Source of the DNA: a virus
Reading direction: 5' to 3' (one strand)
IMG/VR virus record: IMGVR_UViG_3300032736_000302
Location: 1 to 26,848 of that record
Length of the DNA: 26,848 nt
In this document: in pieces, positions 6,377 through 19,165 of the stretch
Layout of the letters: every line of letters starts with the position of its first letter
How positions within the stretch are numbered: the stretch's first letter is position 1
Program-made: the position numbers and the translations under genes
Notes under the pieces: generated by a model
Databases searched by the model: none
Told to the model about the DNA's origin: nothing
The model's input: only the letters and a program-made list of their open reading frames with translations

Positions 6377-8920
6377 TTAACGGCCAAACGCCTTTGAAGC
6401 CGCTCCACCCCGGCTGGCCGCGCGCATGGTCGCACTGACTGCGCGGCGCTCGACCACGTTAGGGCCGGCCAGGCCCATGATCAGACTTTCCAGGCGAGCA
6501 AGGCCGGCCTGATCAGCGCCGCGCGCATCAATATTGAAGACGTTGCCACCGCCATCTCCGCCGCCGTTGGGAATGATAGTCCCCGATTTTCCTGGCGTGA
6601 ATAATTCCGGGCCGCGCTCCCCGACCATATAACTCGTATTCGCCGACACTGGCCCGCCGCCGGCCCGGGCGCCGCCAAAGCTTCCGGCATCAATGGCCAG
6701 CGGAACTTCCAGAACGCTATCAAGCCCGCCGCCGAAACCATCGAACGCCGCTCCGAGGCCCGACTTGAAAATGCCACTCAAGAAATCCGCCCCGGGCTCG
6801 GTAACGGCTTTCCGGAGAAACAAACGCGCAACGTCTTGTGCTAATCCACGCAGAACATCCGACAATTTTTTACCGCTGACCACGGCATCTTCAAAGGCGC
6901 TGCTAAACGTCAGGCCCAGTTCTCTGGCTGAGTCCTCGTTTTTCTTCGCCTGATCATCGACCTTTTCGAGTTCACGGCCAAACATTTGCACATCGCCGCG
7001 CGCCTCTTTCCATCTCCGACCCTCTTCCGTCAAAAGATTGATGCTGTCCCGGCGGGCATCGTTGATAAGTTCGAATCTATCCTGCAGATTTTCATATTCC
7101 AGCCTCGATCGGCCCAACGCCTCTGCCAAGGCTTTGGTTTGCAGCGCCTCGATTCTCAATTCCTTTGTGGCTTTTTCTACATCCGACGTCATATTTGTGG
7201 CCGCGGCGGAAACGCCGGTCATTCCACCAAAACCGCCGCCACCAATAATCAATGACATCGCCCGGGCCGACTCCTCTGCGGCAGTCCGCAATTTGGCCAG
7301 GGCCGTCTTGGATTCAGCTATCCGCGTTCGCAAGGCGGCTATTTCTTGGCCCTGTCCAGAAGTCGCCGTATCGTTTCCCATCATGCCGACGCCTTGGGAC
7401 GCCACTAGGGCATCGATCAGGTTTAGCCGCGCTTCCGCCGCTGCAATATCAGCTTCGGCCAACGTCCTGGCTGACGTTGATGCTTGCTGGAAAGCCGGGC
7501 CAGACAGGCCCAGGGCTTCGTCAACGGCGGTGATAGCATCAACATGAAGCCTCGCCGCCGCCTCGGCTTTACCGATGCCGCCCGCCAGCAAGACCGCGGC
7601 GCCAGCCGCCAGGCCGAAGGCAATAGCGATAGGATTGAGTTTCATCACCGTCGACAGCAATGCACCGGCGGCCGCGGCAGCCCTTAGACTGGCAGCGAGT
7701 TTGTAGGTGGCGACCGCTATGCCGCCAAATATCGCAGCCGTCTTGAAGGCAATAAACGACGCGATCGCCGCCGAGATCTCATTTATATTTCTCACTACAA
7801 ATTCGAGCGCCGTGGCCAATGCAGGAACAACCGTATCGCCCAGAATAATTGCACTGGCCTCCATACTGGCCATGGCCGCATTGAACCGAAATCCAGACCT
7901 GCCCGCCACCGCATCAAACGCTTTGTCCAAGGCGCCCGTCGTGTCGGCCATGCGCCGGAAAATACCTTCGACGCCTGCAGCATTCGCGCCGGTCAAGGCG
8001 AGGACCGCATTAACCGCCTCGACCCTTCCGAAGATCTTAACCAGGGCCGTTTCGTTGGTGCCGATGACGTTGCGGAGTTCGGTCAACGTGGCCAGAAGGC
8101 CCTTCTCTTTGATATTTTGCCGAATGATCGCATAGCTAAGGCCGTAATCCTTTAAGACCTTCTTGCCCGTTTCCGCCTCCTTCGCCAGCGCAACCAAGAC
8201 CCCACGCAAGGACGTCACCGCCTCGCTGGTTGATATACCAATTCTGGTCAGCGATGCGACCGAGGCGCCAACCTCGTAGAATTTAACGCCGGCGTTTTCC
8301 GCGACGGACATCACCTGGCCGATCGAGCCAGCAAGTTCGCTGGCTTCCAGCTTGCCTTCACGAACGGTTGCCACCAAGACATCGGTTGATTGTGCCGCCG
8401 TAAGATTGGCCGATTTGTAGGCATTCATGGCGGACGTCACGGCATCCGCCACGTCCTTGGTTTCCCCCAATCCGGCGGTCGCGGCCTTAGCCGATACCGT
8501 AAGCGTGTCGACGGCTTCCTGCCCCTGGATACCGGCGGACGTTATGAAGAAAAGTGCATCGGCCAATTCGCCCGGGCCCTTGCCAACGGCCGGCCCCATC
8601 TCAAGGATAGACTTATTGAAAGAGTCCACCTCAGACTGGGCCACGCCAACAAGGCCGACAATCTGTTGCAATGACGTCTCGTACCCAGAAAAGGTTGTTC
8701 GCAATTTATCGAGGGCCAGGACGCCAACCAACGAACCGGCGCCGGCGCGCAGCCGGGAGAATTGCCGGGATACATTCTGCGAAGACCGCTCGACTGCCTG
8801 CATGGAACGCCGCATCTTGGCGGTAGACGAAGAAATATCCCTTTGGGCCCGCTTCAAATCTCGCGTGAAGGCCGCGCTTTGCAACCGCATGTCGGCAACG
8901 AGCGATCCGATCCTGGCCAT
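6377..8920 (-). CDS. Tail tape measure protein (TP901 type)
   Basis: This 847-aa protein is the longest tail gene after gpJ and follows the tail chaperone genes, as expected for a tape measure. Residues 1-60 are charged and helical. Residues of about 70-300 match the TP901 tape-measure core (ETSLQQIVGLVGV, ITSAGIQGQEAVDTLTVSAK, GLGETKDVADAVTSAMNAYK). A hydrophobic helical region lies at about 370-455 and could span the membrane during DNA entry. The far C-terminus carries a tail-protein motif (NTSYMVGERGPELFTPGKSG) and a Gly-rich stretch. In the family, length sets tail length; 847 aa would predict a tail of roughly 125 nm if the usual 0.15 nm per residue applies. Confidence 0.92.
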   Translation of the reverse strand: MARIGSLVADMRLQSAAFTRDLKRAQRDISSSTAKMRRSMQAVERSSQNVSRQFSRLRAGAGSLVGVLALDKLRTTFSGYETSLQQIVGLVGVAQSEVDSFNKSILEMGPAVGKGPGELADALFFITSAGIQGQEAVDTLTVSAKAATAGLGETKDVADAVTSAMNAYKSANLTAAQSTDVLVATVREGKLEASELAGSIGQVMSVAENAGVKFYEVGASVASLTRIGISTSEAVTSLRGVLVALAKEAETGKKVLKDYGLSYAIIRQNIKEKGLLATLTELRNVIGTNETALVKIFGRVEAVNAVLALTGANAAGVEGIFRRMADTTGALDKAFDAVAGRSGFRFNAAMASMEASAIILGDTVVPALATALEFVVRNINEISAAIASFIAFKTAAIFGGIAVATYKLAASLRAAAAAGALLSTVMKLNPIAIAFGLAAGAAVLLAGGIGKAEAAARLHVDAITAVDEALGLSGPAFQQASTSARTLAEADIAAAEARLNLIDALVASQGVGMMGNDTATSGQGQEIAALRTRIAESKTALAKLRTAAEESARAMSLIIGGGGFGGMTGVSAAATNMTSDVEKATKELRIEALQTKALAEALGRSRLEYENLQDRFELINDARRDSINLLTEEGRRWKEARGDVQMFGRELEKVDDQAKKNEDSARELGLTFSSAFEDAVVSGKKLSDVLRGLAQDVARLFLRKAVTEPGADFLSGIFKSGLGAAFDGFGGGLDSVLEVPLAIDAGSFGGARAGGGPVSANTSYMVGERGPELFTPGKSGTIIPNGGGDGGGNVFNIDARGADQAGLARLESLIMGLAGPNVVERRAVSATMRAASRGGAASKAFGR

Positions 8921-8927
8921 GGCCCAC

Positions 8928-9344
8928 CTATTTCTTTGCTAATTTCCTGGCTTCCCGCGTCAGGCCTTGCGCCATGACCCGACCCATTTCATTTAACGCC
9001 TCGCCGGCCTTGTTGTCCATCGCCGGGCGCATGAACGGCTTCGCCGCTGCATTCTTGGTACCAAACTCGGTCAAATGAGCCCGGCCACTGGTTGGCTGCT
9101 TGAAGCCAATCAAAACCACGCGCTCGTTATCGTCTTTGTTTTTTCGTTCCGTCTCCGTGACAATAGAGTCACGCAAATCACCAGAATCCTTCGGCACCAA
9201 TCGCTTGGCTTCCGCAACGATGACCTTGGCGCCGGCGCGCAACGACTGATCACCAACCCTAGACGCAACATTCGGGCCCAGCGCCTTCAAGACGCGCTCC
9301 ATGTCGGCAGCGCCTTTGATGTCAAAGTCAATGATGCCGGCCAT
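8928..9344 (-). CDS. HK97 gp10-like tail completion protein
   Basis: The 138-aa sequence matches the HK97-gp10-like family: SLRAGAKVIVAEAKRLVPKD, SGDLRDSIVTE, AHLTEFGTKNAAAKPFMRPA. These proteins take part in tail completion or head-tail joining. Usually the gene lies between the head-tail adaptor and the DUF3168 gene. Here it sits after the gpGT reading frame and before the tape measure. Its ATG overlaps the gpT-frame stop (TAATG), so it is likely coupled to the frameshift product. Confidence 0.82.
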   Translation of the reverse strand: MAGIIDFDIKGAADMERVLKALGPNVASRVGDQSLRAGAKVIVAEAKRLVPKDSGDLRDSIVTETERKNKDDNERVVLIGFKQPTSGRAHLTEFGTKNAAAKPFMRPAMDNKAGEALNEMGRVMAQGLTREARKLAKK

Positions 9345-9697
9345 TAGGGCTTTACTTTCTCCGCCGTTTTTATGCGCCCGGCAAACATACCTCGAAATTC
9401 GGCGCGTAGTGGTTTCGTGTTTATTTTAACGGATTTGGTTACGGCTTCATAATCCGGGATGAAATCTCTGGCGAGAATGGGCTTGCCGCTCTTCTTCCGC
9501 ATGGGCGAGGAATTGACGACGGCCGAGGCGATCGTTCCGGCCCTGTGCCAATCGACGTCATTGCCCCACGGCTCGACATCGTAGAACGCCGCCCATTCTT
9601 GAAGTTGCCAATCAGTCAGGGAACTTTCAAGAAGATCGACATCCAATAAGCCGAGAGCCAGCGCCAGCCGATATAAGAACCGGCGCCGGCGACTCAG
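9344..9697 (-). CDS. gpT-like extension of tail assembly chaperone gpGT, reached by -1 frameshift
   Basis: The frame has no good start of its own; the only candidate is a TTG at 9646 without a clear ribosome site. Read from the slippery site it continues gpG in the -1 frame as LSRRRRFLYRLALALGLLDV, then DLLESSLTDWQLQEWAAFYD and VEPWG. This is the pattern of lambda gpT and related chaperone extensions (Arg-rich linker, then EWxAFYxxEPxG). Joined to gpG codons 1-124 it gives a 241-aa gpGT. In lambda, the gpG to gpGT ratio controls coating of the tape measure before tube assembly. The next gene overlaps its stop. Confidence 0.85.
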   Translation of the reverse strand: MSRRRRFLYRLALALGLLDVDLLESSLTDWQLQEWAAFYDVEPWGNDVDWHRAGTIASAVVNSSPMRKKSGKPILARDFIPDYEAVTKSVKINTKPLRAEFRGMFAGRIKTAEKVKP

Positions 9698-9703
9698 TTT
9701 CCC
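9657..9703 (-). promoter_or_regulatory. Programmed -1 ribosomal frameshift signal of gpG/gpGT
   Basis: On the minus strand the end of gpG reads CGG GGA AAC TGA. The heptamer G GGA AAC (9697-9703) is a canonical X XXY YYZ slippery site in the gpG frame, directly followed by the gpG stop. After a 6-base spacer (TGAGTC), bases 9690-9680 (GCCGGCGCCGG) can pair with 9667-9657 (CTGGCGCTGGC). This forms an 11-bp stem with two G-U pairs around a 12-base loop. Heptamer, spacer and stem together match known dsDNA-phage tail chaperone frameshift signals. Bases 9658-9709 recur exactly at 14780-14831. Confidence 0.88.
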
Positions 9704-9709
9704 CGTGGT
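9658..9709 (-). repeat. 52-bp direct repeat, copy 1 (gpG/gpGT frameshift element)
   Basis: Bases 9658-9709 are identical to 14780-14831, in the same orientation and 5122 bases apart. The repeat covers the last four codons of gpG, the slippery heptamer, the spacer and all but the final base of the stem-loop. It is functional sequence here, so this is probably the donor copy. Confidence 0.95.
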
Positions 9710-10068
9710 TCCGCCATCCCGTTAACCCGCAGCGCCGCAGTTTGTAGCGGGTTATATACGAACGCGGGCCGAGCCCTCAATTCCTGCTCAGACCCAGGCG
9801 GCACCAAACGCTGGCCGGCCGCATCGACGACGGATGCCGCGGTGACATGCAAAACCAAGGCATCTTCGTCAAAGGCATCTTCGTCGGTTGCCTTCTTGCC
9901 TTCGTGAAGGCAGCTTTGCGTTATCGCCTGCAGGGCCGCCGCCGATAGGGGCTTAACGAAAACATCCATATCAAGGCCATCGATCTTGACCAGCACCGAC
10001 TTACCAAGGGCGAGAGTCTTGGTCAGGAAATCGGCCTTTTTAGCCTTGTCGATTTTCTTCGAAGTCAT
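9694..10068 (-). CDS. Tail assembly chaperone gpG-like
   Basis: This 124-aa protein starts with ATG 6 bases after AGGA. It lies between the tail tube gene and the tape measure, where tail chaperones are found. Its sequence resembles the gpG/TAC family (KIDGLDMDVFVKPLSAAALQ, then an acidic stretch and LRARPAFVYNPLQTAALRVN). A fraction of ribosomes should slip at the last codons to make gpGT. In lambda, both forms bind the tape measure protein and recruit tail tube subunits; neither remains in the virion. Confidence 0.82.
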   Translation of the reverse strand: MTSKKIDKAKKADFLTKTLALGKSVLVKIDGLDMDVFVKPLSAAALQAITQSCLHEGKKATDEDAFDEDALVLHVTAASVVDAAGQRLVPPGSEQELRARPAFVYNPLQTAALRVNGMAEPRGN

Positions 10069-10082
10069 CGTAGATCCTTTTT

Positions 10083-10499
10083 TTAGGCGAAGGTCAGATC
10101 GCCGGTTGGTTTCAGCGTCACGGACAACATCAAGACGCTATCAATCTCAATTTCGTTAACTTCCCATCTGGTCACCAGGGCCGAGAAAGTCACCGTCTGG
10201 GCCGGCGAGTCCGTGAAGGTGACCCGATAGGTCCGAGAAGTTTCCGCGTTGATGTCGGTGCGGAGCGCCGCATGGCCGGCGTTGTCGGGATCATATTGCA
10301 TGATCAGTTCAATTTCCGAGCCGTCCTTGATCGCCTTTTTATATTCGCGCGCGGCCGAAGCCAGATTGGTGACGTCGATCAAGCCGCGAGATTGGCCAAC
10401 CGCGCCGATTGTCTTAATCTGGGCGATCGCCGTATAGGTCAAAGGAGAGTCGGCATTGTCCCGCGCAAAGACCGTGCCGTCTGCTACATAGGTGGTCAT
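10083..10499 (-). CDS. Major tail tube protein
   Basis: The 138-aa protein has an ATG 7 bases after GGAG. Its beta-rich sequence includes IKTIGAVGQSRGLIDVTNLA, AIKDGSEIELIMQYDPDNAG and TVTFSALVTRWEVNEIEIDS. These match the pattern of short lambda gpV-type and HK97-type tail tube proteins. It lies directly before the gpG/gpGT pair, the normal place for a tube gene. It is short for the family and lacks the extra Ig-like domain of lambda gpV. The spacer upstream (10500-10591) holds only a short GC hairpin. Confidence 0.85.
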   Translation of the reverse strand: MTTYVADGTVFARDNADSPLTYTAIAQIKTIGAVGQSRGLIDVTNLASAAREYKKAIKDGSEIELIMQYDPDNAGHAALRTDINAETSRTYRVTFTDSPAQTVTFSALVTRWEVNEIEIDSVLMLSVTLKPTGDLTFA

Positions 10500-10591
10500 G
10501 TGTGAACTCCGTCCATGGATTAGGCGCCATTACGACGCTGCCGCGCGGCTGCCCAAACCGCAAAAAGGGCCACCGCCGTAGGGCGGAGTTG

Positions 10592-10858
10592 TTATTTCTC
10601 TTCCGTCCGAATCTTGCCGCTTTTCTTGTTCTTAAACTTTCGCACATTCCTGTCACTCAATTGAGTAACCTCCACTTCGTCATCGGCATCGGGTGCGTCG
10701 TCCGGTTCTGGCGCGACCGTATCGGGATCCCTTATGAAGCCATGTTCGCCCTCTTCCGTCACGCGGAAAATGTTCGCATCGCCAAGCCCGGATATTTCAA
10801 GTGCGTGGTGCCCGTCCCTGGCGCGGATCAAATGCTGGCCGACAACGTAAATAGCCAT
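10592..10858 (-). CDS. Small acidic phage protein, unknown
   Basis: The 88-aa frame starts with ATG 3 bases after AGGTGA. The first 40 residues look folded (MAIYVVGQHLIRARDGHHAL, then FRVTEEGEHGFIRDPD). The middle is strongly acidic and probably disordered (PEPDDAPDADDEVEV), and the end is basic and Lys-rich (RKFKNKKSGKIRTEEK). It lies between the DUF3168 tail terminator and the tail tube gene. No family is recognised. A head-tail or tube-related role is possible only from position. Confidence 0.55.
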   Translation of the reverse strand: MAIYVVGQHLIRARDGHHALEISGLGDANIFRVTEEGEHGFIRDPDTVAPEPDDAPDADDEVEVTQLSDRNVRKFKNKKSGKIRTEEK

Positions 10859-10865
10859 ATCTCAC

Positions 10866-11255
10866 CTATTCAGTGTGATTGATAATATAATCCTGGATGA
10901 CGCGATAGGCGAGAATTCCGTCTTCGTAGTCATCCCGTTCGTTGTCCAGTTTGATGGAAGCCTTGATTGCGGTCAAGGTTCCCGTAAATCCGCCCAGGGA
11001 AGATCGGACCGCATCTGCCAAATTCTTCGCCGCCAAGGGGGTTGCCGCCCAGCTATCGATTTGAAACCTGGCGTGCGCCCGGCCGGATGCTCCGCCCAAA
11101 TGATGTAACCGCGGGCCCGATACTTTGAAATAGACAATTGCCGGCAAAACAACATCTTGCGGAAGCTGGACCGGATAAACCTTGGCCGAAACCAGGGCCG
11201 ATATTCCGGCATCATTGGTCAGCCGTGTGTAAAGTTCGGAGTCAATCGACATCAT
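10866..11255 (-). CDS. Tail terminator/completion protein (DUF3168)
   Basis: The 129-aa protein follows the DUF3168 pattern: an N-terminal SELYTRLTNDAGISALVSAK, then VYPVQLPQDVVLPAIVYFKV, RFQIDSWAATPLAAKNLADA, and a C-terminal YRVIQDYIINH strand. DUF3168 proteins are structurally related to lambda gpU-type tail terminators, which cap the tube and join it to the head. It overlaps the head-tail adaptor stop by ATGA. There is a second in-frame ATG one codon later. Confidence 0.85.
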   Translation of the reverse strand: MMSIDSELYTRLTNDAGISALVSAKVYPVQLPQDVVLPAIVYFKVSGPRLHHLGGASGRAHARFQIDSWAATPLAAKNLADAVRSSLGGFTGTLTAIKASIKLDNERDDYEDGILAYRVIQDYIINHTE

Positions 11256-11569
11256 GTCACCTGCGCCGTGCCGAGGATTTTCAATCCTTCCCGCCGGCCG
11301 ATTTCGCTTATTCGGGAAATATCATACAAATCCCCGTCTACGTCGACTTTCATTCGACGGGTTACATCGGTCCGATGCCAGATGCTAATTTCCTTTGTGT
11401 CCTTGGCAACGGTTCCGGGGATCCCGGTGTATTCGGTTCCCGCGGCCGGCCTCACCTTTGCCCAAACGATCGCGAGATCGGACCAGGTTTCTACTTCACC
11501 GCCAACCGCATCCCGGGCAACGGTCACTTGCCGAATGGTAACCAGCCTGTCCATCTCGCCGGCGCGCAT
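11252..11569 (-). CDS. Head-tail adaptor (SPP1 gp16 / Phage_H_T_join family)
   Basis: The start is taken as the ATG at 11569, which overlaps the upstream stop as TGATG and gives 105 aa. The N-terminus MRAGEMDRLVTIRQVTVARD is the characteristic beginning of this family. EVETWSDLAIVWAKVRPAAG and the C-terminal LYDISRISEIGRREGLKILG also fit. These small beta-barrel proteins form the stopper ring below the head-tail connector. A start upstream of 11569 would overlap the connector gene and adds no family-like residues. Confidence 0.85.
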   Translation of the reverse strand: MRAGEMDRLVTIRQVTVARDAVGGEVETWSDLAIVWAKVRPAAGTEYTGIPGTVAKDTKEISIWHRTDVTRRMKVDVDGDLYDISRISEIGRREGLKILGTAQVT

Positions 11570-12147
11570 CAGCCCATGTCCCAATTACGGTAGGGGAAGA
11601 TCAACGCCTTGGTGCCATTCGGCACGGATACGATCGTCGAGCCAATGACGGTATCCTCGCGGCGGCTATACATATCACCGATCAGGATCAACATGCCCTG
11701 GCGTATTTCATCCGGCACATCGTTCCAACTGCCCCCGAATCCGGCGATAAAGCGAACGGTCACCGCATTCATTTCGGCGCGCGTGCTGGGCCATGATTGG
11801 CCGTAGGCCGGGCGGATCCGGCCTGGCCAATCCCCCGTAGCGTCCACTTGATAAAGGCTGCTCAATAGGGTCTGGCTGACGCCGGCGGTGTCGGTATAGG
11901 TGATTGACGTCACGGATTGGAGTTTTGACATCGGCACGCGGATCTCAGCCGGAAAATAATCCATCACCAAATCCCACGTCTGGGTAATCAGCGCGCGGCC
12001 GGTAAAGGTTTCCACCCATCCGGTTGCAAGCGATATGAGTTGATCCAGATAGGCCAGTTCGCTATCTGCCGTGATATGCAAATGATCTTTGACTTGCTCC
12101 AATAGCAGGGGCCGGACGGTGGGCTTGGTGACTATGGCCAAACTCAT
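11569..12147 (-). CDS. Head-tail connector (HK97 gp6-like)
   Basis: The 192-aa protein shows the gp6-like pattern: VRPLLLEQVKDHLHITADSE, LDQLISLATGWVETFTGRAL, then a tryptophan-containing strand and a C-terminal helix, DEIRQGMLILIGDMYSRRED. In HK97 this protein forms a ring beneath the portal. The gene is longer than the shortest family members because of a beta-rich insert typical of the variant with the phrase VTVRFIAGFG. It overlaps the adaptor gene by one base and the fibre-like gene upstream by one base. Confidence 0.88.
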   Translation of the reverse strand: MSLAIVTKPTVRPLLLEQVKDHLHITADSELAYLDQLISLATGWVETFTGRALITQTWDLVMDYFPAEIRVPMSKLQSVTSITYTDTAGVSQTLLSSLYQVDATGDWPGRIRPAYGQSWPSTRAEMNAVTVRFIAGFGGSWNDVPDEIRQGMLILIGDMYSRREDTVIGSTIVSVPNGTKALIFPYRNWDMG

Positions 12148-12446
12148 TATCTATGCCCCCCTCGAATATAAATTGATCGATCGGCCGGCTGCCCGGTACT
12201 GGGTGTCATGGTGCATGTCAGCCGGTGATTGTCGCCCGCGGTCACGCCAGAAACCTTAATCGTCGCCAGAAGCGTTGTTTCCGAGGCGCCGGACAATAAT
12301 GGGGCGGACGGCGAGGCGCCATCGTTCGGCGTAATTGCCCACGCTACGGAACTGATTGTGACCCCCGACCCGATCGCTGCAAGATAGGTGGTCCAATCGA
12401 TGGTGTAATCCAGAGTATTGTCCGGATCGTGCAAGAGAACGGTCAT
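12147..12446 (-). CDS. Small Ig-like fibre-type phage protein
   Basis: The 99-aa protein reads as an all-beta domain: LHDPDNTLDYTIDWTTYLAA, then ISSVAWAITPNDG, TTLLATIKVSGVTAGDNHRL and a closing TMTPSTGQPADRSIYIR. This pattern (DYxxDWxxYL, xxSxxWxI, GxxxxDRSIxIR) is common in phages as a small protein near head-tail connector genes, usually named fibre or hypothetical. It ends where the connector starts (TAATG-type overlap) and its start overlaps the capsule-synthesis-like gene. It may be a surface decoration at the neck, but that is inference. Confidence 0.65.
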   Translation of the reverse strand: MTVLLHDPDNTLDYTIDWTTYLAAIGSGVTISSVAWAITPNDGASPSAPLLSGASETTLLATIKVSGVTAGDNHRLTCTMTPSTGQPADRSIYIRGGHR

Positions 12447-13246
12447 TTTAGAAACCTTCCCAGATGTTCCCAGGCCACGCCTGTCTGGACGTCATAAAGA
12501 TTCCACTGAGCATATGCCAGATTGCTTGCCCATTGCGAGCGGTCCGGCCGTATAGGATCTTGGGTTACGTCGTGCCGGGCAACATCCCACGCCATGGAGC
12601 CTTCGTCGAGAGCATACACCGGGACGCCAGCTAATGCAGCATCAACGCCAGAATTTGAATTGCAGGTGATGACGGCCGCGGCGCCGGCCAGGGCAGAGGA
12701 CAATTCACCAGATAGGCCAATGGCGCCATCCGGCGTTGGCGTGGAGCCGGCCATTGGATGGGCGCGAAACATGACCGGCATATCCAAGGCGCTGCAGGCC
12801 TCGATCGCAGCTTGATACCATCCCCGAATATCCAAATGCGCCACGGATTGATCACCGGGAACCTGGCCCATGAGCAATATATAATCTCCGCCATCTTTCC
12901 AGGGTTGCATCAAATCCGCAAAATTATCGGCGAATCGATCAGGCGGGGAGTTCTCATTGACAAAATCCGCGCGGCCATTTAGTCCGTTCCAGCCACAGCC
13001 GGACCACGATCGCCGATTGCCAATATATCCGCGCTCCATCACCAGCACATTGGCGACAGGGTTTGGGCGAAAGAGTTCCAGGCCAATCCGCCATCCCCAA
13101 CAAACCGCCACATCGCCGGCAAGATGTATCTCCATCTCGGTCAACCGTTCTACGTTGATGCCGTGACGCTTGATGCCTTGCGCCATTGCATCGAGCCAAA
13201 ATACTTGGTGTGGGTGCTGCCGTTGCGTCACGATCGAGATCATCAC
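12443..13246 (-). CDS. Capsule polysaccharide synthesis/GT-B-like protein
   Basis: This protein of about 267 aa begins with a Rossmann-like strand (ISIVTQRQHPHQVFWLDAMA). It contains AGDVAVCWGWRIGLELFRPN, then YILLMGQVPGDQSV and MFRAHPMAG. A GT-B-style nucleotide-sugar loop follows: VITCNSNSGVDAALAGVPVY. The last two blocks resemble capsule-synthesis (KpsC/KpsS) and CDP-glycerol-transferase-like enzymes, where the conserved His and the Ser-rich loop bind the donor. The donor here is unknown. The start may be GTG 13246 (AAGG 9 bases upstream) or the next codon, ATG 13243. It is the last enzyme of the accessory cassette before the structural genes resume. Confidence 0.7.
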   Translation of the reverse strand: MMISIVTQRQHPHQVFWLDAMAQGIKRHGINVERLTEMEIHLAGDVAVCWGWRIGLELFRPNPVANVLVMERGYIGNRRSWSGCGWNGLNGRADFVNENSPPDRFADNFADLMQPWKDGGDYILLMGQVPGDQSVAHLDIRGWYQAAIEACSALDMPVMFRAHPMAGSTPTPDGAIGLSGELSSALAGAAAVITCNSNSGVDAALAGVPVYALDEGSMAWDVARHDVTQDPIRPDRSQWASNLAYAQWNLYDVQTGVAWEHLGRFLK

Positions 13247-13281
13247 TATGCCGGGCCTTCCGTGTTTATCGCCACAAGGCG

Positions 13282-13341
13282 TTATAAGCGGTTCTCAGGG
13301 GGATTTCCATAGAGGCACGCGACCGTGCCCCGGATCATCAT
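13282..13341 (-). other. Short untranslated spacer with a 19-codon open frame
   Basis: The 134 bases between the methyltransferase and the capsule-synthesis-like gene contain only a 19-codon frame with an in-frame double ATG (MMIRGTVACLYGNPPENRL), ended by TAA. No good ribosome site is seen. The peptide has a folded-protein look, and the adjacent frame is open into the next gene apart from one TGA, so it may be a remnant of an older, longer N-terminus. Confidence 0.2.
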
Positions 13342-13380
13342 TTGGCCGGCCGTGCGCGCCAGCGGCAAGTCTGGGGCTAC

Positions 13381-13965
13381 CTATCGGCATTCGACCACGA
13401 TTGTCCTGCCGTTCACGTCGGGTTCAACCGGCGAACTTCCGCCTACCTGGCCATACCATTGCTCTGGGGTCCAGCCGCAGCGGAGCAAAAGGGCGCGAAA
13501 ATCATCCTTGGTGTAATGCCGGTGATGGACCGGCGCCAGGCGCGGTTGCCACGCCCAGACATCTTCGTTGGGCACGCTGGCCAGCAACGTATGGGCAAAG
13601 GTACGGGCCTGCCTTAGAAACAACTCGGGATTGGCCAAATGCTCGATGACCTCGAAGGCAACGACGGTATGGGAATAAAGTGGCACCGCGCCAAGATCTC
13701 TTAAGTCACCCAAAGTGTATTTGATGTTCGGGCGGTCATAGTGTTCCGATGCCCATTCCAGGCCCTCGCGCCAGCAATCGATGCCCTCCACCATAAATCC
13801 TGCATCGGCCAAAATAGCGGTGCCGTAGCCGCTATTGCAGCCAGCATCCAAGACAAGGCCCTTGGCCCGCGTGGCTGCCCACTGGTACCGGCCAACATGA
13901 TCCCCGCGCACGTCTTTAACCGTGCCGTCTGGGCTCAATCTCGCGTTTATCCAAGGATCGATCAT
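13381..13965 (-). CDS. Class I SAM-dependent methyltransferase
   Basis: The start is the ATG at 13965, which overlaps the upstream stop (ATGA) and has AAGGA 7 bases before it, giving 194 aa. Motif I is clear at residues 38-48 (VLDAGCNSGYG). It is followed by an acidic residue at the end of strand 2 (VEGID, 59-63), a motif II-like GDLRDL near 87-92 and the EVIEHL motif at 105-110. These are hallmarks of Methyltransf_11/23-type small-molecule methylases, which often modify sugars or lipids. In this cassette a glycan substrate is the likely one, but nothing in the sequence fixes it. The 17-residue extension to 14001 is probably not used. Confidence 0.88.
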   Translation of the reverse strand: MIDPWINARLSPDGTVKDVRGDHVGRYQWAATRAKGLVLDAGCNSGYGTAILADAGFMVEGIDCWREGLEWASEHYDRPNIKYTLGDLRDLGAVPLYSHTVVAFEVIEHLANPELFLRQARTFAHTLLASVPNEDVWAWQPRLAPVHHRHYTKDDFRALLLRCGWTPEQWYGQVGGSSPVEPDVNGRTIVVECR

Positions 13966-14660
13966 CGCCAGTTCCTTTTTACCCAGTCGACCGCCTGGCA
14001 CTTCGCCATGGCGGGACTACTGCGCCCATTGAAAAATACGACCCTGGCGCTTTCCGGAAGGCCTGTATGCTGGATCGGCGTGAAGCTTTCGATGCCGGCG
14101 TTAAATTTAGGCCAGGACGCGCCCTCATTGTCGAGGATATACGAAACCCAGCCCTGATCGCCGCGCTCGAATCCGGCATCCTCGGCTTCTTGTGGCCCGG
14201 TGTTCGGATCAAATCGGTTCCACACCTCTGGAAAGGCGCCGCCATCCATCAAGACAAATGAGGTGTTAAACCGGGCTTTCCTATCGGCGGGAATCTTGTT
14301 CGTTTCCCATGCCGTAAATGGCGCGTCGGTATCGAGAAGCGGCGCGATGTCGTCGACGATAACAACGTCTAGGTCCATCATCAAAATCCGCTCGCCAAAC
14401 CTTTTCCCGGCTTCTGGTTGAAACGCGAAAAGTTTCGGATAATAGGTGCCCATTTCTTTCACCGATCCAGGCATTGTCACCACCCGAACGGCGGGGATTA
14501 TGCCTTGCGGATTGTCCGTCACGCAGACCAGTTCGTGCGGGATGCTCAAATGACGCTTCAACATGCTATGGAGATTGTTGACGTAGTGGTGATCATATCG
14601 ATAGTAGGGGTTGTTCCGGAAATCCGGATTCCACCATTTGAAGCATAAAACGGTGAGCAT
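13962..14660 (-). CDS. DXD-type glycosyltransferase (GT-A fold, GT8-like)
   Basis: Starting at ATG 14660 gives 232 aa. A metal-binding DLD motif lies at residues 96-98 inside RILMMDLDVVIVDDIAPLLD, followed by FNTSFVLMDGGAF and, late in the sequence, VVFFNGRSSP. The last motif stands where GT8-like enzymes have a conserved HFxGxxKP. The enzyme should move a sugar from a nucleotide donor to an unknown acceptor. The start at 14660 overlaps the stop of the disrupted small gene (TGATG) and has GGAGG 10 bases upstream, so it is preferred over the ATG at 14696. Confidence 0.82.
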   Translation of the reverse strand: MLTVLCFKWWNPDFRNNPYYRYDHHYVNNLHSMLKRHLSIPHELVCVTDNPQGIIPAVRVVTMPGSVKEMGTYYPKLFAFQPEAGKRFGERILMMDLDVVIVDDIAPLLDTDAPFTAWETNKIPADRKARFNTSFVLMDGGAFPEVWNRFDPNTGPQEAEDAGFERGDQGWVSYILDNEGASWPKFNAGIESFTPIQHTGLPESARVVFFNGRSSPAMAKCQAVDWVKRNWR

Positions 14661-14933
14661 CAGAGAAGCACCTCCGCCCTTGGAATTCGCCAGCATTGGT
14701 GGCCATGCCTTTCCCAGCCCGGCAGCATTTCATCGATCACCGTAGCCACCGACGGATATTGCCAATCATGGCCGCAGATCCAGCGCCAGCCGATATAAGA
14801 ACCGGCGCCGGCGACTCAGTTTCCCCGTGGTCCAGCCAAATTCCTTAACCCAGCTTTCTAGCAGTTTCCAATGTGCGGTCTTGCGGCCTTCCTTAGTCGG
14901 CTCGTTGCGGCTGCGTGAATGATTTTCCATCAT
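14660..14933 (-). pseudogene. Small cassette gene split by a 52-bp duplication
   Basis: The gene begins at an ATG that overlaps the upstream stop (TGATG at 14933). It reads MMENHSRSRNEPTKEGRKTA, then HWKLLESWVKEFGW, then enters the repeat at 14831. The repeat contributes TTGKLSRRRRFLYRLAL, and the frame stops at 14766 after 55 codons. In a different frame, the bases after the repeat encode ICGHDWQYPSVATVIDEMLP, then GWERHGHQCWRIPRAEVLL, ending in a TGA that overlaps the next gene's ATG. Removing exactly 52 bases puts both halves in one 73-codon frame. The second half faintly resembles the C-terminal end of small methyltransferases. Function is unknown. It is probably inactive here, unless the 55-aa form has a role. 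Confidence 0.6.
14780..14831 (-). repeat. 52-bp direct repeat, copy 2 (ectopic frameshift element)
   Basis: This copy is identical to 9658-9709, in the same orientation. It contains GGGAAAC (14819-14825) and the stem-loop, with one terminal pair lost. Here the reading frame crosses it as GGG AAA CTG, so the heptamer is not in the phase needed for canonical slippage. The flanks differ from those of copy 1 except for short GC-rich matches. It splits the small gene at 14660-14933. Confidence 0.95.
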
Positions 14934-15490
14934 CAAATGACCTCCTTCTTTTTGCCGGCATCATAAATCTGCGTTGCAGGCTCATAGTCCCGCAAATCCT
15001 CGATATGGCGGTCTTTCCGGGCGGCCAGCCAGATCAACTCGCCGGGAACCCGCGTTGTCGACCATTGTTCGAGGATCGTGAATCCGTTTTTCGACACGAA
15101 AGCGCACATCGCCGGGGCGCTGGTAATGTGCAGCCCGTGGTTCTTGAAGCCGCTGACTGGCGAATGGGTCAGAAAACACCCGCCGACCTCGACAGCCCGG
15201 AGCGCGTTGGCCCAGGCATTGTGAGCATTCCAGACGTGCTCGATGGTTCCCATGTTGAACACCGTCCGGTGGGTTTGTGACAGCCCTATATCGGTATTGA
15301 GGTCAAGTTCCAGATCGCCGCCGTCGAGGTCCAGATCCTCGTATCCGTCTCCGACCCACTGGCCGAAATATTCATGCGCCGTTGGAAACGCCGGCAGGAC
15401 GCTGCCCGTCGCCCCCAGCATCAGCATGGCGGGTTTGTAATATTTAGCGAACCGCTCAAGAGGCGTCGTGTGCTCTGGGTGGATCGTCAT
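14933..15490 (-). CDS. Methyltransferase-like protein (class I SAM fold, degenerate motif I)
   Basis: The 185-aa protein has the middle and end of a Methyltransf_11-like fold: LDLDGGDLELDLNTDIGLSQ, then FNMGTIEHVWNAHNAWANAL and ALRAVEVGGCFLTHSPVSGF. The usual glycine-rich SAM loop near the N-terminus is weak (MLMLGATGSVLP replaces the ExGxGxG pattern). It may bind SAM poorly or act as a partner of the active methylase at 13381-13965. Its ATG overlaps the stop of the GT2-like gene (ATGA) and its stop overlaps the split small gene (TGATG), so it is embedded in a coupled cassette. Confidence 0.68.
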   Translation of the reverse strand: MTIHPEHTTPLERFAKYYKPAMLMLGATGSVLPAFPTAHEYFGQWVGDGYEDLDLDGGDLELDLNTDIGLSQTHRTVFNMGTIEHVWNAHNAWANALRAVEVGGCFLTHSPVSGFKNHGLHITSAPAMCAFVSKNGFTILEQWSTTRVPGELIWLAARKDRHIEDLRDYEPATQIYDAGKKKEVI

Positions 15491-16206
15491 AATAGATGCC
15501 TCACAGATGTTGGATATTCGCCGTCATAAAGCGCCAGAGGATGCCGGCGATCCGCGATGTTCTGGAAGTGTGGATGCTCTTTCCAGTCTTTCGGCCATTG
15601 GATTGTCGCGGCCTCGAAACTCTTCCTGGACCATTTTAAATGAACGAAGGCCGGCCGGTCTATCGTCGCCGTCGGATCCCCCGCATTCCTCAGGCTTTGC
15701 GTCATCGGGCCTTGCGCGTAGTGGGTCTGGCCGGCCAGGTAGACGCCATTGGTGGGGCACTTGGGGTGGCTGCCTATATGGGTCAAAGCATCGCCGACAA
15801 TATCGGTTCCCTCGAATTTGATCCTGTCGTGGCCAGCGGCCATCAGCTTCCGTATTTCAGCGCCGGCCCAGTCCATCATAACCATATCGCCGTCCAGCTT
15901 GACCAGATGCTTCCGCGTGGCCTTCGATTGGGTGAAGTTGTATAGCGCCGCGCTGGATCTCTTGTCCGTCGCCGGGATGTCGTCATGGCCCGGGCCCATC
16001 GGCCAGATATCATGCGGATAATCGAAGACCTTAACCTTCTCGCGGTGCACCATTTGGAAATTCAAGGCAATGTCCATGGTGGCATCCGTCGAAGCGTTGA
16101 CCACCACGATCAATTCATCACACCAGTCAACGAAGGATTCCAGGGCCAGGCGGCACCAAACTTCCTCGTTGCGGATCCGGACCAAGCCGGACAGGCCCTC
16201 ACGCAT
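15487..16206 (-). CDS. GT2-like glycosyltransferase
   Basis: The 239-aa protein begins with the GT2-like phrase LVRIRNEEVWCRLALESFVD. It continues with DELIVVVNASTDATMDIALN, the usual nucleotide-binding Asp region, and has the DXD-like motif DGD at residues 105-107 (HLVKLDGDMVMMDW). The C-terminal half is rich in His, Trp and Lys, and the acceptor cannot be read from it. It overlaps the pyruvyl-transferase-like gene by 8 bases and the methyltransferase-like gene by 4. A sugar transfer to glycan or protein is likely. Confidence 0.8.
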   Translation of the reverse strand: MREGLSGLVRIRNEEVWCRLALESFVDWCDELIVVVNASTDATMDIALNFQMVHREKVKVFDYPHDIWPMGPGHDDIPATDKRSSAALYNFTQSKATRKHLVKLDGDMVMMDWAGAEIRKLMAAGHDRIKFEGTDIVGDALTHIGSHPKCPTNGVYLAGQTHYAQGPMTQSLRNAGDPTATIDRPAFVHLKWSRKSFEAATIQWPKDWKEHPHFQNIADRRHPLALYDGEYPTSVRHLL

Positions 16207-16939
16207 TGATCAACTCCATAACCCGCTCATAAAACGACCAATTCTGGGCCCGGCAATCGGCAAGCGCATTGGGGTGTTGCTTCACCCAGCCCGCAACGCC
16301 CCGCCAATCGTTCGCGTTCGCGATCATGGCGGCCGGGAATTTCTGACGCCAGAACTTCGAACTATAGGGCTGGAATATAACCCGCTTGCCCAGCAATGTT
16401 GCCCAGTACATCCCGTGAAAAGAATTGGTGACTACCGTTTCGGCCGAACCAAGAAACATTATAGTGTCTTCGAATGATTCGGTGTTCTCCATCGTCGGCA
16501 GATCATTCGCTCCCAACGGATACCGGCTTTTGATCTGGGGAGATGCGTTCATAAACCGCACGGCCTCATGCTTCACATAATATTTCAAATTAAACAAAGG
16601 CGACATGCAGGACGCGCAGGGCACATATTTTCCCGTTACTTCCCGGTCGAACGTCCATTCCCTGGTACCGATCATATCGAAACCCTCGGGATCCGGTGAC
16701 GGCTCCGTCTCGCCGTGGTTTGTCGATCCGGTCCCCCACAGGATAGCCTTGGCTCCCTTCGGCGCCCGGCCCTCGGCCCAGGACGTCAACGTCCCGCCGC
16801 CAAATATAACCGCATCGCAGGGCGGTATGGCTTCCTCGTAGTTTCCAACATGATGTTCCGGCCAGTCAAAATAGGCCGCCGGCGAACTGGCTAAATCACC
16901 GATGTTTCCGGTGTTGCGTATATTTCTGAATTGGATCAT
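16199..16939 (-). CDS. Polysaccharide pyruvyl transferase-like protein
   Basis: The 246-aa sequence shows the features of the polysaccharide pyruvyl transferase family: GNIGD at 11-15, FGGGTL at 46-51, GTRE at 91-94, a Cys pair (CASC) near 108-111, and TNSFHGMYWATLLGKR at 171-186. In well-studied members (CsaB, ExoV and relatives) the enzyme adds a pyruvate ketal from PEP to a sugar, changing its charge; some relatives act on other glycans. It is shorter than most bacterial members. The ATG follows GGAG by 6 bases. Its neighbours are sugar transferases, supporting a role in glycan tailoring. Confidence 0.82.
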   Translation of the reverse strand: MIQFRNIRNTGNIGDLASSPAAYFDWPEHHVGNYEEAIPPCDAVIFGGGTLTSWAEGRAPKGAKAILWGTGSTNHGETEPSPDPEGFDMIGTREWTFDREVTGKYVPCASCMSPLFNLKYYVKHEAVRFMNASPQIKSRYPLGANDLPTMENTESFEDTIMFLGSAETVVTNSFHGMYWATLLGKRVIFQPYSSKFWRQKFPAAMIANANDWRGVAGWVKQHPNALADCRAQNWSFYERVMELINA

Positions 16940-16988
16940 TTGTCGCTCCGTAGGGCAGGGGTTGAATTTACGTCCAGGTGGACGCGGT

Positions 16989-17611
16989 TCAAATATTGCT
17001 TGTCATTAACTCCGCCAATGTAGCGGCCACATATCTCTGTTTTTCGAAGCTGTAATCGGCGAGAAGGTCGACCGCGGAATGAATGTTTTTTTCTCGGTAT
17101 CGATGCGCGCGATGCCCTGATTGAGATCGTTGATCTTGGATGCGAGAATATTTTCGAGAATATTTGGCTTACCTTCGACGACGGTAAATCGCCCCAGAAG
17201 CTTTGCCAGTACGTCCCGCGTCCCCTCCAATAAGGGAACTTGGGAATCACAATGCTGCAGGCGACCGGACAAGGCCTGGCACATAATCAAAATCATGTCC
17301 TGGCGGATCGGTTCGGCGCACTTGTCGAGAACTTGTCCCATCGCGTTGTCAAAAGCCCAGTCGACCATCGCCAATATCTTGGCGTCGGTATTGTCCGGAT
17401 CGGTGGTGCCGGCGTTACCGGTCTGGTCATACTGGGCGCGGCGTTCCGGATCCATCAAAACCTTATAGGCAAAGTGGATGCGCTCAAATTTATCGGCATC
17501 GCCGTCGTGGTCGGGATGGTGTTCTTGGGCCAGTCGATAGAAAGCTTTTTTGATGGTGGCGGCATCTGCCGAGATATCGACGTCTAGGACATCATAGAGA
17601 TTAGGGATCAC
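16989..17611 (-). CDS. J-domain cochaperone (DnaJ-like) with a frameshift near the 3' end
   Basis: The preferred start is GTG at 17611, 6 bases after GAGG, rather than GTG at 17623. The J domain fills residues 5-65, with the diagnostic HPD at 32-34 (EHHPDHDGDADKFERIHFAY). This should stimulate the host DnaK ATPase. The rest is a helical region with CAEPIRQDMILIMCQ and VEGKPNILENILASKIND. After a run of seven A residues at 17092-17086, the zero frame turns to low-complexity residues and stops at 17006. The -1 frame instead gives NIHSAVDLLADYSFEKQRYV, then AATLAELMTSNI, ending at 16989. That frame looks like the genuine C-terminus. The annotated span assumes one extra base; the product would be about 207 aa. 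Confidence 0.82.
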
Positions 17612-17674
17612 CGAAAACCTCACTCAAATTCATGGTAGGGAAGCAATCAATAGCACTTTGTGGTATGCTTCTCT

Positions 17675-18520
17675 ATGCCAAAAAAATTAAATCTCGTTGG
17701 TCTTCGTGTTGGACGCATAACTGTTGTCGAGCGTATAGGAAGCGTGCGCCACAATGGGCGGTCAAATGTTACTTGGCAGTGCATCTGTGATTGTGGCATG
17801 GCAGTTATCCTTACCAGCAATACGCTAAGACATGGCGGCACGCGGAGTTGTGGATGCCTTAAGCGCGAAAACGCTGCACATTTAGCAAAAATGCACCCGC
17901 TACAGTCCACGGCCCGTGATTTGACGGGGCAAAAATTCGGACTTTTAACGGCGCAATCGCCCACAAAGGAACGGCGTCGAAAAAGTGTTGTCTGGGACTG
18001 CCTGTGCTCCTGCGGCAACCGTCATTTGGTCGCCGCCACCGGCCTGTTGACGGGTGATACCAAAAGCTGCGGCTGCACCAAAGGCGTGGCATCAATTACT
18101 CACGGAGCGACACGGCATGGCGAATGGACGCGCGAATACACAGTTTGGGCGGCAATGTTGCAGCGGTGTTCTAACCCAAATAACACCGCCTTCGATCGAT
18201 ACGGCGGGCGTGGAATAACCGTCTGTGATCGATGGAAGTCTTTTGAGAATTTCTTTTCAGACATGGGGCCACGGCCGGCGAATATGAGCATTGATCGAAT
18301 CGACAACAACAAGGGGTATGAGCCCAACAACTGTCGATGGGCTACCGAAACTGAGCAACAGCGCAATAAAACAAGCAGTAGACTGCTGACGTGGGATGGC
18401 CAGACGCTCTGTGTCTCCGAATGGGCAGAATTATTAGGTGTCCCCAGCCGACGAATAATCAGTCGGCTGGCCCGAGGCTGGGATGTGGAACGCGCCCTAA
18501 CATTTCCGTTACAGAATTGA
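17675..18520 (+). CDS. HNH/homing-endonuclease-like protein with two zinc-ribbon units
   Basis: This is the only plus-strand gene recognised. The start is the ATG at 17675 (281 aa), preferred because family members begin near LVGLRVGRITVVER; a GTG at 17660 is also open and neither has a strong ribosome site. It has two zinc-ribbon units, each a CxCxCG and a later SCGC (WQCICDCG...SCGC and WDCLCSCG...SCGC). A nuclease-like domain follows: YGGRGITVCDRW, SIDRIDNNKGYEPNNCRWAT, ETEQQRNK. The C-terminal block SEWAELLGVPSRRIISRLAR with GWDVERAL resembles a DNA-binding repeat. Such genes occur as free-standing elements in phages. Its 3' end overlaps the convergent DUF115-like gene by 12 bases. Confidence 0.8.
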   Translation: MPKKLNLVGLRVGRITVVERIGSVRHNGRSNVTWQCICDCGMAVILTSNTLRHGGTRSCGCLKRENAAHLAKMHPLQSTARDLTGQKFGLLTAQSPTKERRRKSVVWDCLCSCGNRHLVAATGLLTGDTKSCGCTKGVASITHGATRHGEWTREYTVWAAMLQRCSNPNNTAFDRYGGRGITVCDRWKSFENFFSDMGPRPANMSIDRIDNNKGYEPNNCRWATETEQQRNKTSSRLLTWDGQTLCVSEWAELLGVPSRRIISRLARGWDVERALTFPLQN

Positions 18521-19165
18521 GGGCAATGGCGCCCAAGGAAAGCATTTCAGCACAGAGTTTGGCGTCGCGTTAAAAATTTCAACTCCCCGTTCCGCCAACG
18601 GTTCAATCAATGTTGGAAAATATGGCAGCATCGTTCCGGAGTAATCCGACCGAATTCTGTCAGGGTGATCGCCAAACCAATGGGCGCGTCCAGGCTCGTC
18701 TTCGTGGGTGATGTCGTGCATATCAAACCCAACCAGGACCACGCGCCTGGCGCCCGCCTTCACGGCAATCTGGATGGCCTGATAGCCGCCGTTTCCGCCA
18801 CCGGCGACGGTATCCGGTTCCTCTGGAAAACCGCCGCTATACCCGGATTGCTTATCCAGCTGGACCCGAAGAAACTTTGCCCAGGCTTCCGGTACCGTCT
18901 CCGTGCACGTCGTTCGAATGCCGGGAAATTTCGTTACCGTCTCGCGATGCCACATCCACCATTTAATATCGCAGCCGTGCAGCCAGTCGGCCCACCACGC
19001 TCCATAAATCGCATCGTTGACCGCAATCACTCGGCATTTATTTTCCAGCGTCGCCCGGGCAATTAACCGGTTTTGCGCCAGATCAAAAGACGGACCTCCG
19101 CCAATGATTACGGCCGTGGGCCCATCCGGCCACAAGAGCGGGACGGGCCAGGAATCGCGACTCAT
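18509..19165 (-). CDS. MptE/DUF115-like protein (possible glycosyltransferase-type)
   Basis: The 218-aa protein begins with a glycine-rich nucleotide loop (AVIIGGGPSFDLA, residues 19-31), then RVIAVNDAIYGAWWADWLHG. Later it has GGNGGYQAIQIAVKAGARRV and VLVGFDMHD. These match the phage branch of the DUF115/MptE-like family. Bacterial relatives include Maf proteins that attach nonulosonic acids to flagellin and enzymes of pterin synthesis; the substrate of the phage branch is not established. The start overlaps the stop of the upstream gene (ATGA). Its 3' end overlaps the plus-strand endonuclease-like gene. Confidence 0.72.
   Translation of the reverse strand: MSRDSWPVPLLWPDGPTAVIIGGGPSFDLAQNRLIARATLENKCRVIAVNDAIYGAWWADWLHGCDIKWWMWHRETVTKFPGIRTTCTETVPEAWAKFLRVQLDKQSGYSGGFPEEPDTVAGGGNGGYQAIQIAVKAGARRVVLVGFDMHDITHEDEPGRAHWFGDHPDRIRSDYSGTMLPYFPTLIEPLAERGVEIFNATPNSVLKCFPWAPLPSIL

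Follow-up and report, generated by a model that had tools for sequence, protein, structure and literature searches.

Why would a phage keep a set of glycan-transferring enzymes in the middle of the genes for its own particle? The question is raised by the virus record IMGVR_UViG_3300032736_000302, which was analysed as one stretch of 26,848 bases (hereafter, the window). A cassette at positions 12443-19165, with seven enzyme-like open reading frames (ORFs; c1 and c3 to c8) and one DnaJ-domain ORF (c2), lies there between head and connector genes, as an initial annotation made from the letters alone had proposed; the ORFs were confirmed to be open and the flanking genes were assigned with PHROGs. 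The cassette is not a mere local oddity. Many viral contigs (given L numbers here) carry it in a comparable position, and the genes at its two ends, c1 and c8, are its conserved core. Our results suggest that many phages decorate their own particles with unusual acidic sugars. As the best explanation for the cassette we propose that a virion protein is glycosylated late, in the cytoplasm, with a sugar of the 3-deoxy-D-manno-oct-2-ulosonic acid (Kdo) or nonulosonate type, trimmed by variable enzymes, and we put the probability of this reading at roughly 0.55.

For each of the seven enzyme genes, independent contigs carry a relative at the same site, with identities of about 40-68%. The search with c1 retrieved L003 and L005, whose capsids are about 62% identical and which carry the cassette at the matching place, in the order c1 c3 c4 c5 c6 c7 c8 and c1 c3 c4 c7 c6 c8, respectively. 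Searches with c4 and with the major tail protein (MTP) yielded further cassettes, and the smallest consist of c1, c4 and c8 (L096) or of c1 and c8 (L110). A profile search of genome contigs with the c4 alignment gave no relative. Scanning with a c8 profile returned 207 viral relatives (80 were retained) and a further 9 loci from named genomes, whose titles place all of them in diderm lineages. Clustering at 90% identity left 69 distinct c8 genes, 45 of them flanked by 3 kb or more in both directions. At 36 of these 45 loci c1 lies within 6 kb of c8 on the same strand, 35 times upstream, and for none of the 69 genes was c1 found on the opposite strand. Recognised virion genes occur within 8 kb of c8 on both sides at 28/45 loci and on at least one side at 35/45, so the embedding in a late virion operon that had been noted for the window is general. 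c1 and c8 often have a methyltransferase gene between them, next to gp6-like, HK97-gp10-like and MTP genes. Few matches were found in bacterial genomes (4/385 in the class of the Bauldia genome and 3/369 in that of the Endozoicomonas genome, centre genomes counted), which suggests that c8 is mostly a phage gene.

What could the two core genes encode? c1 matches phrog_4603, labelled 'alpha-2,3-sialyltransferase' (E 2.4e-29), and this name is the only pointer to sialyl transfer; when the c1 profile was run against PDB sequences, the matches were at chance level only. When the predicted model (predicted local distance difference test, pLDDT, 87.5) was compared with solved structures by a second aligner, the best match was Magnetospirillum Maf (5mu5; Z 15.1 over 186 residues, 3.7 Å), followed by Cst-I (Z 12.2), Cst-II (11.4), archaeal HPPK (11.3) and human sialyltransferases (8.2 downward). 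From this ranking, c1 is predicted to adopt the catalytic-domain fold of Maf and GT42. A G-P-S loop (window residues 24-26, in a count whose positions start from residue 6), Asp 66, Asp 148, His 162 and His 167 are kept in 88-100% of 68 distinct near-full rows, and these residues presumably resemble the Cst-II active site. c1 corresponds to the central domain of Maf only (aligned to 253-510 of the 632-residue chain) and is linked to virion rather than flagellar genes. The initial annotation had reasoned from DUF115 relatives to protein glycosylation; Maf as the top structure strengthens that step, for a putative acceptor and with modification of the host surface as a less probable alternative.

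For c8, the fifteen best structural matches of the predicted model (pLDDT 82.9) were all KpsC, WbbB or KrkA retaining Kdo transferases (Z 15.1-11.9; next row 10.1), led by 6mgd (Z 15.1, 231 residues, 3.5 Å), and Foldseek matched the model to the Kdo-transferase fold class with E 1.6e-6. The portions of PMC10148158 and PMC12887879 available to us describe a QXXXD motif with the nucleophile Asp as invariant in beta-Kdo transferases, and an HP motif as common to KpsC-type enzymes and enzymes that use cytidine monophosphate (CMP)-sialic acid. In c8, Q128 and D132 (QXXXD), R161, H163 and P164 are invariant in 14/14 rows of an alignment (A8) collected before the c8 scans, and D132 aligns on D232 of WbbB, where the wild-type record reads VEDDSN and the D232N record VEDNSN. 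Among the 69 distinct sequences GQxxxD is present in 63, QxxxD in 67 and RxHP in 67, counts that are partly biased because one of the two viral scan patterns was GQ.GD. The protein shares its fold over nearly the whole length, along with both motifs, with GT99 (WbbB), GT107 (KpsC) and GT140 (KrkA). It differs from them by weak sequence similarity and as a single 267-aa module in a phage, with a putative donor and acceptor; it is filed in none of the three and likely represents a new family of the retaining Kdo-transferase fold. Both core proteins would be of the CMP-ulosonate-transferase type, a shared trait that the initial annotation, like the wide spread of the set, had not recognised, and these enzyme classes are well supported by predicted folds and motifs. 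In L207 and L208, c1 is followed by two tandem c8 genes, recalling the two modules of KpsC; L207 is flanked by portal, capsid and connector genes.

Relatives of the core are also present in laboratory phages. In Pseudomonas phage D3 the c1 relative is orf7, behind the capsid gene, and its annotated start is probably late, since the frame is intact from position 1859 (L212 1859-2383). A 275-aa protein (orf12; phrog_6804; GT9/GTB-type in the records of its relatives) and a methyltransferase (orf13) stand ahead of the HK97-gp10 gene of D3. In PAJU2 a c1 relative (gp10), a GT-B protein (gp11) and a methyltransferase (gp12) are direct neighbours in the interval from head closure to tail terminator, and in Enterobacter phage Mulvp2 an unannotated c1 (L215 6508-6987) adjoins relatives of the GT-B and methyltransferase pair of D3 and PAJU2. 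In Caulobacter jumbo phage C1, the genes for c1 (gp162), for two members of the c8 family (gp163, gp164), for a methyltransferase and for a GT9 protein follow the tail-fibre genes, and pmgO and pmgP of P1 are tandem c1-family genes (L197 3995-4974; E 4.8e-34 and 9.7e-14).

The late position in the virion operon, together with the fold match of c1 to Maf, makes protein glycosylation the best reading of the cassette. From gene content, conservation, location, catalytic motifs and predicted folds, we infer donor, acceptor, order of steps and purpose as follows. c1 would take a CMP-activated ulosonic acid, which may be the CMP-Kdo of the host or a nonulosonic acid (pseudaminic or legionaminic acid, for example), and transfer it in the cytoplasm to Ser/Thr of a virion protein, while particles assemble or earlier. 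The acceptor would most likely be a neck, head-surface or tail protein. c8 would then add a further beta-linked ulosonic acid by a two-step covalent mechanism via Asp132, while c4, c6 and c3 may extend or cap the chain and c7 may methylate it. Other phages would substitute a sulfotransferase, other methyltransferases or a CMP-sugar synthetase, and such swapping of enzymes could alter the surface glycan as a protection against re-adsorption, antibodies or adsorption traps.

Where would the sugar donor come from? L093 encodes, between its second c1 copy and c8 (13098-14468), a cytidylyltransferase fused to an RraA-like aldolase domain (CTP_transf_3, 57.5 bits, cut-off 22.6; RraA-like, 84 bits, cut-off 24.5). 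The families named nearest to its cytidylyltransferase half are PseF (59.7 bits, below the cut-off of 205.7) and KdsB, and the fusion protein may both synthesise and activate a keto-deoxy sugar acid. Minimal cassettes have no CMP-sugar synthetase gene. CMP-Kdo is regarded as general in diderm bacteria, and E. coli K-12 is not known to have nonulosonates; host CMP-Kdo would suffice as the donor for minimal cassettes. According to the part of PMC11339370 that was accessible, a Maf enzyme is able to use both N-acetylneuraminic acid (Neu5Ac) and Kdo donors.

The accessory enzymes are less uniform. c3 was initially described as pyruvyl transferase-like; the superfamily assignment holds by a narrow margin, its Pfam score lying just over the cut-off of 25.3 bits, and its family profile is nearest to WbbZ (E 5.7e-4). 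The c4 profile (alignment A9) matched GmaR (22ao; E 2e-6), a flagellin sugar transferase of Listeria, and the c4 relative in L093 passes the Pfam CgtA cut-off. The earlier description of c5 as methyltransferase-like is not supported: Pfam, PHROGs, PDB and hhalign gave it no family or structure match (best PDB match E 0.69; hhalign probability 0.9%). Variable enzymes in other cassettes include GT8 and a sulfotransferase in L109 and Methyltransf_24 in L154. On the look of the sequence, the gene at 9402-9938 of L093, inside the cassette, resembles Ntn-hydrolase or proteasome-type proteins, with a weak DUF match in Pfam.

Enzymes of these classes might instead act late in infection on the host surface (lipopolysaccharide core, capsule lipid or O-chain), so that particles avoid sticking to debris or rivals are excluded. 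D3-type phages presumably carry seroconversion genes elsewhere, which we counted in favour of this alternative. The accessible text of PMC12887879 has KpsC and WbbB acting on capsule glycolipid and O-antigen, and that of PMC7824862 reads the glycosyltransferase clusters of jumbo phages as modifying capsular polysaccharide. Against such a role, virion genes lie on both sides of c8 at the 28 of 45 loci mentioned above, the cassette tracks the tail module, and it holds no membrane protein as judged by hydropathy, a crude measure: no cassette protein has a 19-residue window above 1.5, and the proteins therefore look soluble. In this and in its late structural location it differs from gtrABC-type seroconversion systems, which likewise consist of phage-encoded glycan enzymes. 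Cassettes of the gtr type include a membrane flippase and a membrane glycosyltransferase. We consider modification of the host surface unlikely.

Several results weigh against glycosylation of the virion by c1 and c8. The Pfam MptE-like score of c1 is 28.0 bits, below the curated cut-off of 34.6, so c1 may work like Maf but is not filed as Maf. Foldseek alone puts archaeal HPPK first for c1 (E 5.8e-4), and the Maf/GT42 ranking thus rests on the second aligner. The c8 profile matches the solved enzymes weakly (E 0.012 for KpsC, 0.064 for WbbB). At 9 of the 45 c8 loci no c1 lies within 6 kb, several of these being in bacterial genomes without recognised virion genes. Serine and threonine are not enriched in the MTP where c1/c8 are present (Ser+Thr 0.194, n=42, vs 0.201, n=11, without; p=0.55). 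The accessible text of PMC10695390 lists pmgO and pmgP of P1 both as nonessential for plaques. Finally, the c1 relative of PAJU2 was deposited as 'structural protein', as was the PAJU2 MTP, which could mean a non-enzymatic role.

That last label, and the place of c1 and c8 among connector genes, would fit glycosyltransferase folds that now serve in the neck or head without enzymatic activity. Such reuse is hard to reconcile with the c8 QXXXD and HP motifs, kept in 67/69 sequences each (a pattern-biased count), and with the methyltransferases, CMP-sugar synthetase and sulfotransferase alongside. Moreover, PmgO and PmgP are not named in the part of the P1 virion mass spectrometry text that was available, and both are dispensable. 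We regard this explanation as improbable.

Composition was also compared for other candidate acceptors of virion glycosylation. Capsid Ser+Thr is 0.141 with c1/c8 and 0.125 without, and the connector is likewise richer, in comparisons where kinship was not controlled. The MTP is connected to the cassette in another way. L090, L091 and L093 have portals 28-29% and capsids 37-45% identical to those of the window, yet their c4 is 57-65% identical, and the MTPs of L091 and L093 are 60-65% identical to that of the window, which suggests that cassette and tail move together against the head genes. c8 is present in 12 of 15 loci found by MTP only, and the remaining three end short of its place. The MTP type as sole target of the cassette was nevertheless dropped, and the link is suggestive at most, because c1 and c8 also stand beside MTPs of only 30-31% identity (L006, L096).

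Head relatives bear on whether the genes are unrelated cargo (morons) that gathers in a permissive gap behind the capsid gene. All 36 of 36 capsid-only relatives with a recognised gp6-like connector (near-duplicates included) have 0.5-3.2 kb at this place without cassette genes, which makes the set dispensable, and homing endonucleases and the J-domain gene have landed in the cassette, as cargo might. An assemblage of this kind would not be expected to keep c1 first and c8 last, to retain the same core at 28% portal identity and between other neck genes as well, or to be under purifying selection; we think it hardly probable.

The ratio of nonsynonymous to synonymous substitution rates (dN/dS) was 0.05-0.21 in most comparisons, the exception being c4 of one pair (0.43, at dS 0.08); the table of values leaves out c1 of L093/L094, which are two different c1 copies. 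For L091/L107 the ratio was 0.07 for c8, 0.15 for c6, 0.17 for c4 and 0.14 for the MTP. L093 and L173, from different samples, are 99-100% identical over 8988-10587 and from 15388 onward, and 79-97% identical within 10588-15387, the span that holds most of the cassette. L172 and L169 are about 84-96% identical in most windows and 54-70% across the c3 end and c4 start, with further dips to 66% at 8200-8599 and 75% at 14200-14599 and one window unaligned. Together, low dN/dS and local divergence suggest that segments of the cassette are exchanged without loss of gene function, which fits a variable surface glycan; neutral recombination may also lie behind the exchange.

Could the sugars instead be destined for DNA, as a hypermodification on an altered base? 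Phage glycosyltransferases can glycosylate DNA, judging by the title of Pyle 2024. However, PF00303 (thymidylate-synthase/hydroxymethylase) was found in only 1 of 28 viral records (25 with c8 and 3 without, possibly fragments) compared with 9 of 14 control genomes, and the late structural placement likewise speaks against it. We judge this role very improbable.

Glycosylation of phage particles is already known, and the c1 and c8 pair and its position appear to be new. According to the available parts of PMC12363180 and PMC12619734, glycosyltransferases of mycobacteriophages Che8, Corndog and Myrna modify capsid and tail-tube proteins. The phages studied here share with them phage-encoded glycosyltransferases, here placed with virion genes, and differ in their hosts and in a core of predicted Maf/GT42 and retaining Kdo-transferase folds. 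Flagellin glycosylation islands resemble the cassette in having a Maf-fold protein, a GmaR-like GT2, a CMP-sugar synthetase and a methyltransferase side by side; in contrast, we saw no full nonulosonate pathway, and the cassette sits among phage neck genes. A literature search that covered few subscription papers and no preprints found nothing on phage KpsC-like or Maf-like enzymes or on the c1 and c8 pair.

More tentatively, the cassette may belong to a widespread, unrecognised phage system that decorates neck or head proteins with Kdo or nonulosonic acids through a Maf-like starter enzyme together with retaining ulosonosyl transferases of a new family, even where CMP-Kdo is the only CMP-ulosonate of the host; the virions of P1 or D3 may then carry a Kdo-type sugar. 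With c1 and c8, particle glycosylation outside actinobacteriophages gains a specific pair of enzymes and a predicted class of sugar. The vague database label 'alpha-2,3-sialyltransferase' becomes tied to a conserved gene set, and the proposed glycosylation of virions is directly testable in classical phages. If it is true, many phages would wear variable glycoprotein coats, which would matter for how phages adsorb, how immune systems recognise therapeutic phages and how phages are classified, and retaining ulosonate transferases would gain a new family in c8.

The layout of the window completes the picture (Table 1). Read 5' to 3' on the minus strand, the small and large terminase subunits (TerS, TerL), portal, protease, major capsid protein (MCP) and two small genes precede the cassette; the gp77-like gene, head-tail adaptor Ad1, head closure Hc1, tail terminator, MTP, neck/tail completion and further tail genes follow it. 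These assignments come from PHROGs, except that TerS and the tail-tip end were assigned from the look of the sequence. Within the cassette, Pfam or PHROGs directly support c1, c2, c3, c6 and c7.

Table 1 Genes of the cassette and its connector-side neighbour in the window
Feature	Coordinates	Strand	Basis
c1, DUF115/MptE-like, Maf/GT42-fold putative CMP-ulosonate transferase (core gene 1)	18509..19165	-	PHROGs, model fold
HNH endonuclease, local insertion	17660..18520	+	phrog_374, E 6.6e-86
c2, J-domain protein, local insertion	17006..17623	-	Pfam DnaJ, E 5.9e-18
c3, PS_pyruv_trans-superfamily enzyme (pyruvyl or glycosyl transfer)	16199..16939	-	Pfam PF04230, 26.0 bits
c4, GT2-type glycosyltransferase, GmaR nearest solved protein	15487..16206	-	profile match
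c5, conserved protein, activity unassigned	14933..15490	-	59% identity in L003 and L090
c6, glycosyltransferase	13962..14696	-	phrog_1962, E 1.4e-13
c7, class I S-adenosylmethionine (SAM) methyltransferase	13381..14001	-	Methyltransf_23, E 7.9e-10, above cut-off
c8, KpsC/WbbB/KrkA-fold putative retaining CMP-ulosonate transferase (core gene 2)	12443..13246	-	model fold, motifs
gp77-like fibre-tail adaptor domain protein, adjoining c8	12147..12446	-	Pfam Gp77, E 5.6e-15

The gp77-like protein is a possible candidate for a neck acceptor. In L105 a LamG-like structural gene (3-1478) stands immediately ahead of the gp77-like adaptor, and L091, L107 and L006 have large genes at the matching place.

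Most cassette genes had been described as joined by start-stop overlaps. From d1, which overlaps c1, to the gp77-like gene, only 5 of 9 same-strand junctions overlap (d1/c1 4, c3/c4 8, c4/c5 4, c6/c7 40 and c8/gp77 4 nt); the other four are gaps of 885 (containing the HNH gene), 66, 236 and 134 nt. The 236-nt gap lies between c5 and c6 (14697-14932), which abut in L003.

The HNH gene had been missed in the earlier inventory. It runs against the operon, and 12 nt at its end are shared with the end of c1. Among all loci compared, neither the J-domain gene nor an HNH gene at this position was seen outside the window and a 99.96%-identical contig, so the J-domain gene, initially counted as a cassette member, is no component of the system, and the idea of its product as a chaperone of the system was dropped. 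Since c1 and c3 overlap or abut in L003 where the window has both genes, the pair appears to have come in there as a single insertion. On inspection of the sequence, other homing-type genes lie elsewhere in the L005 and L091 cassettes.

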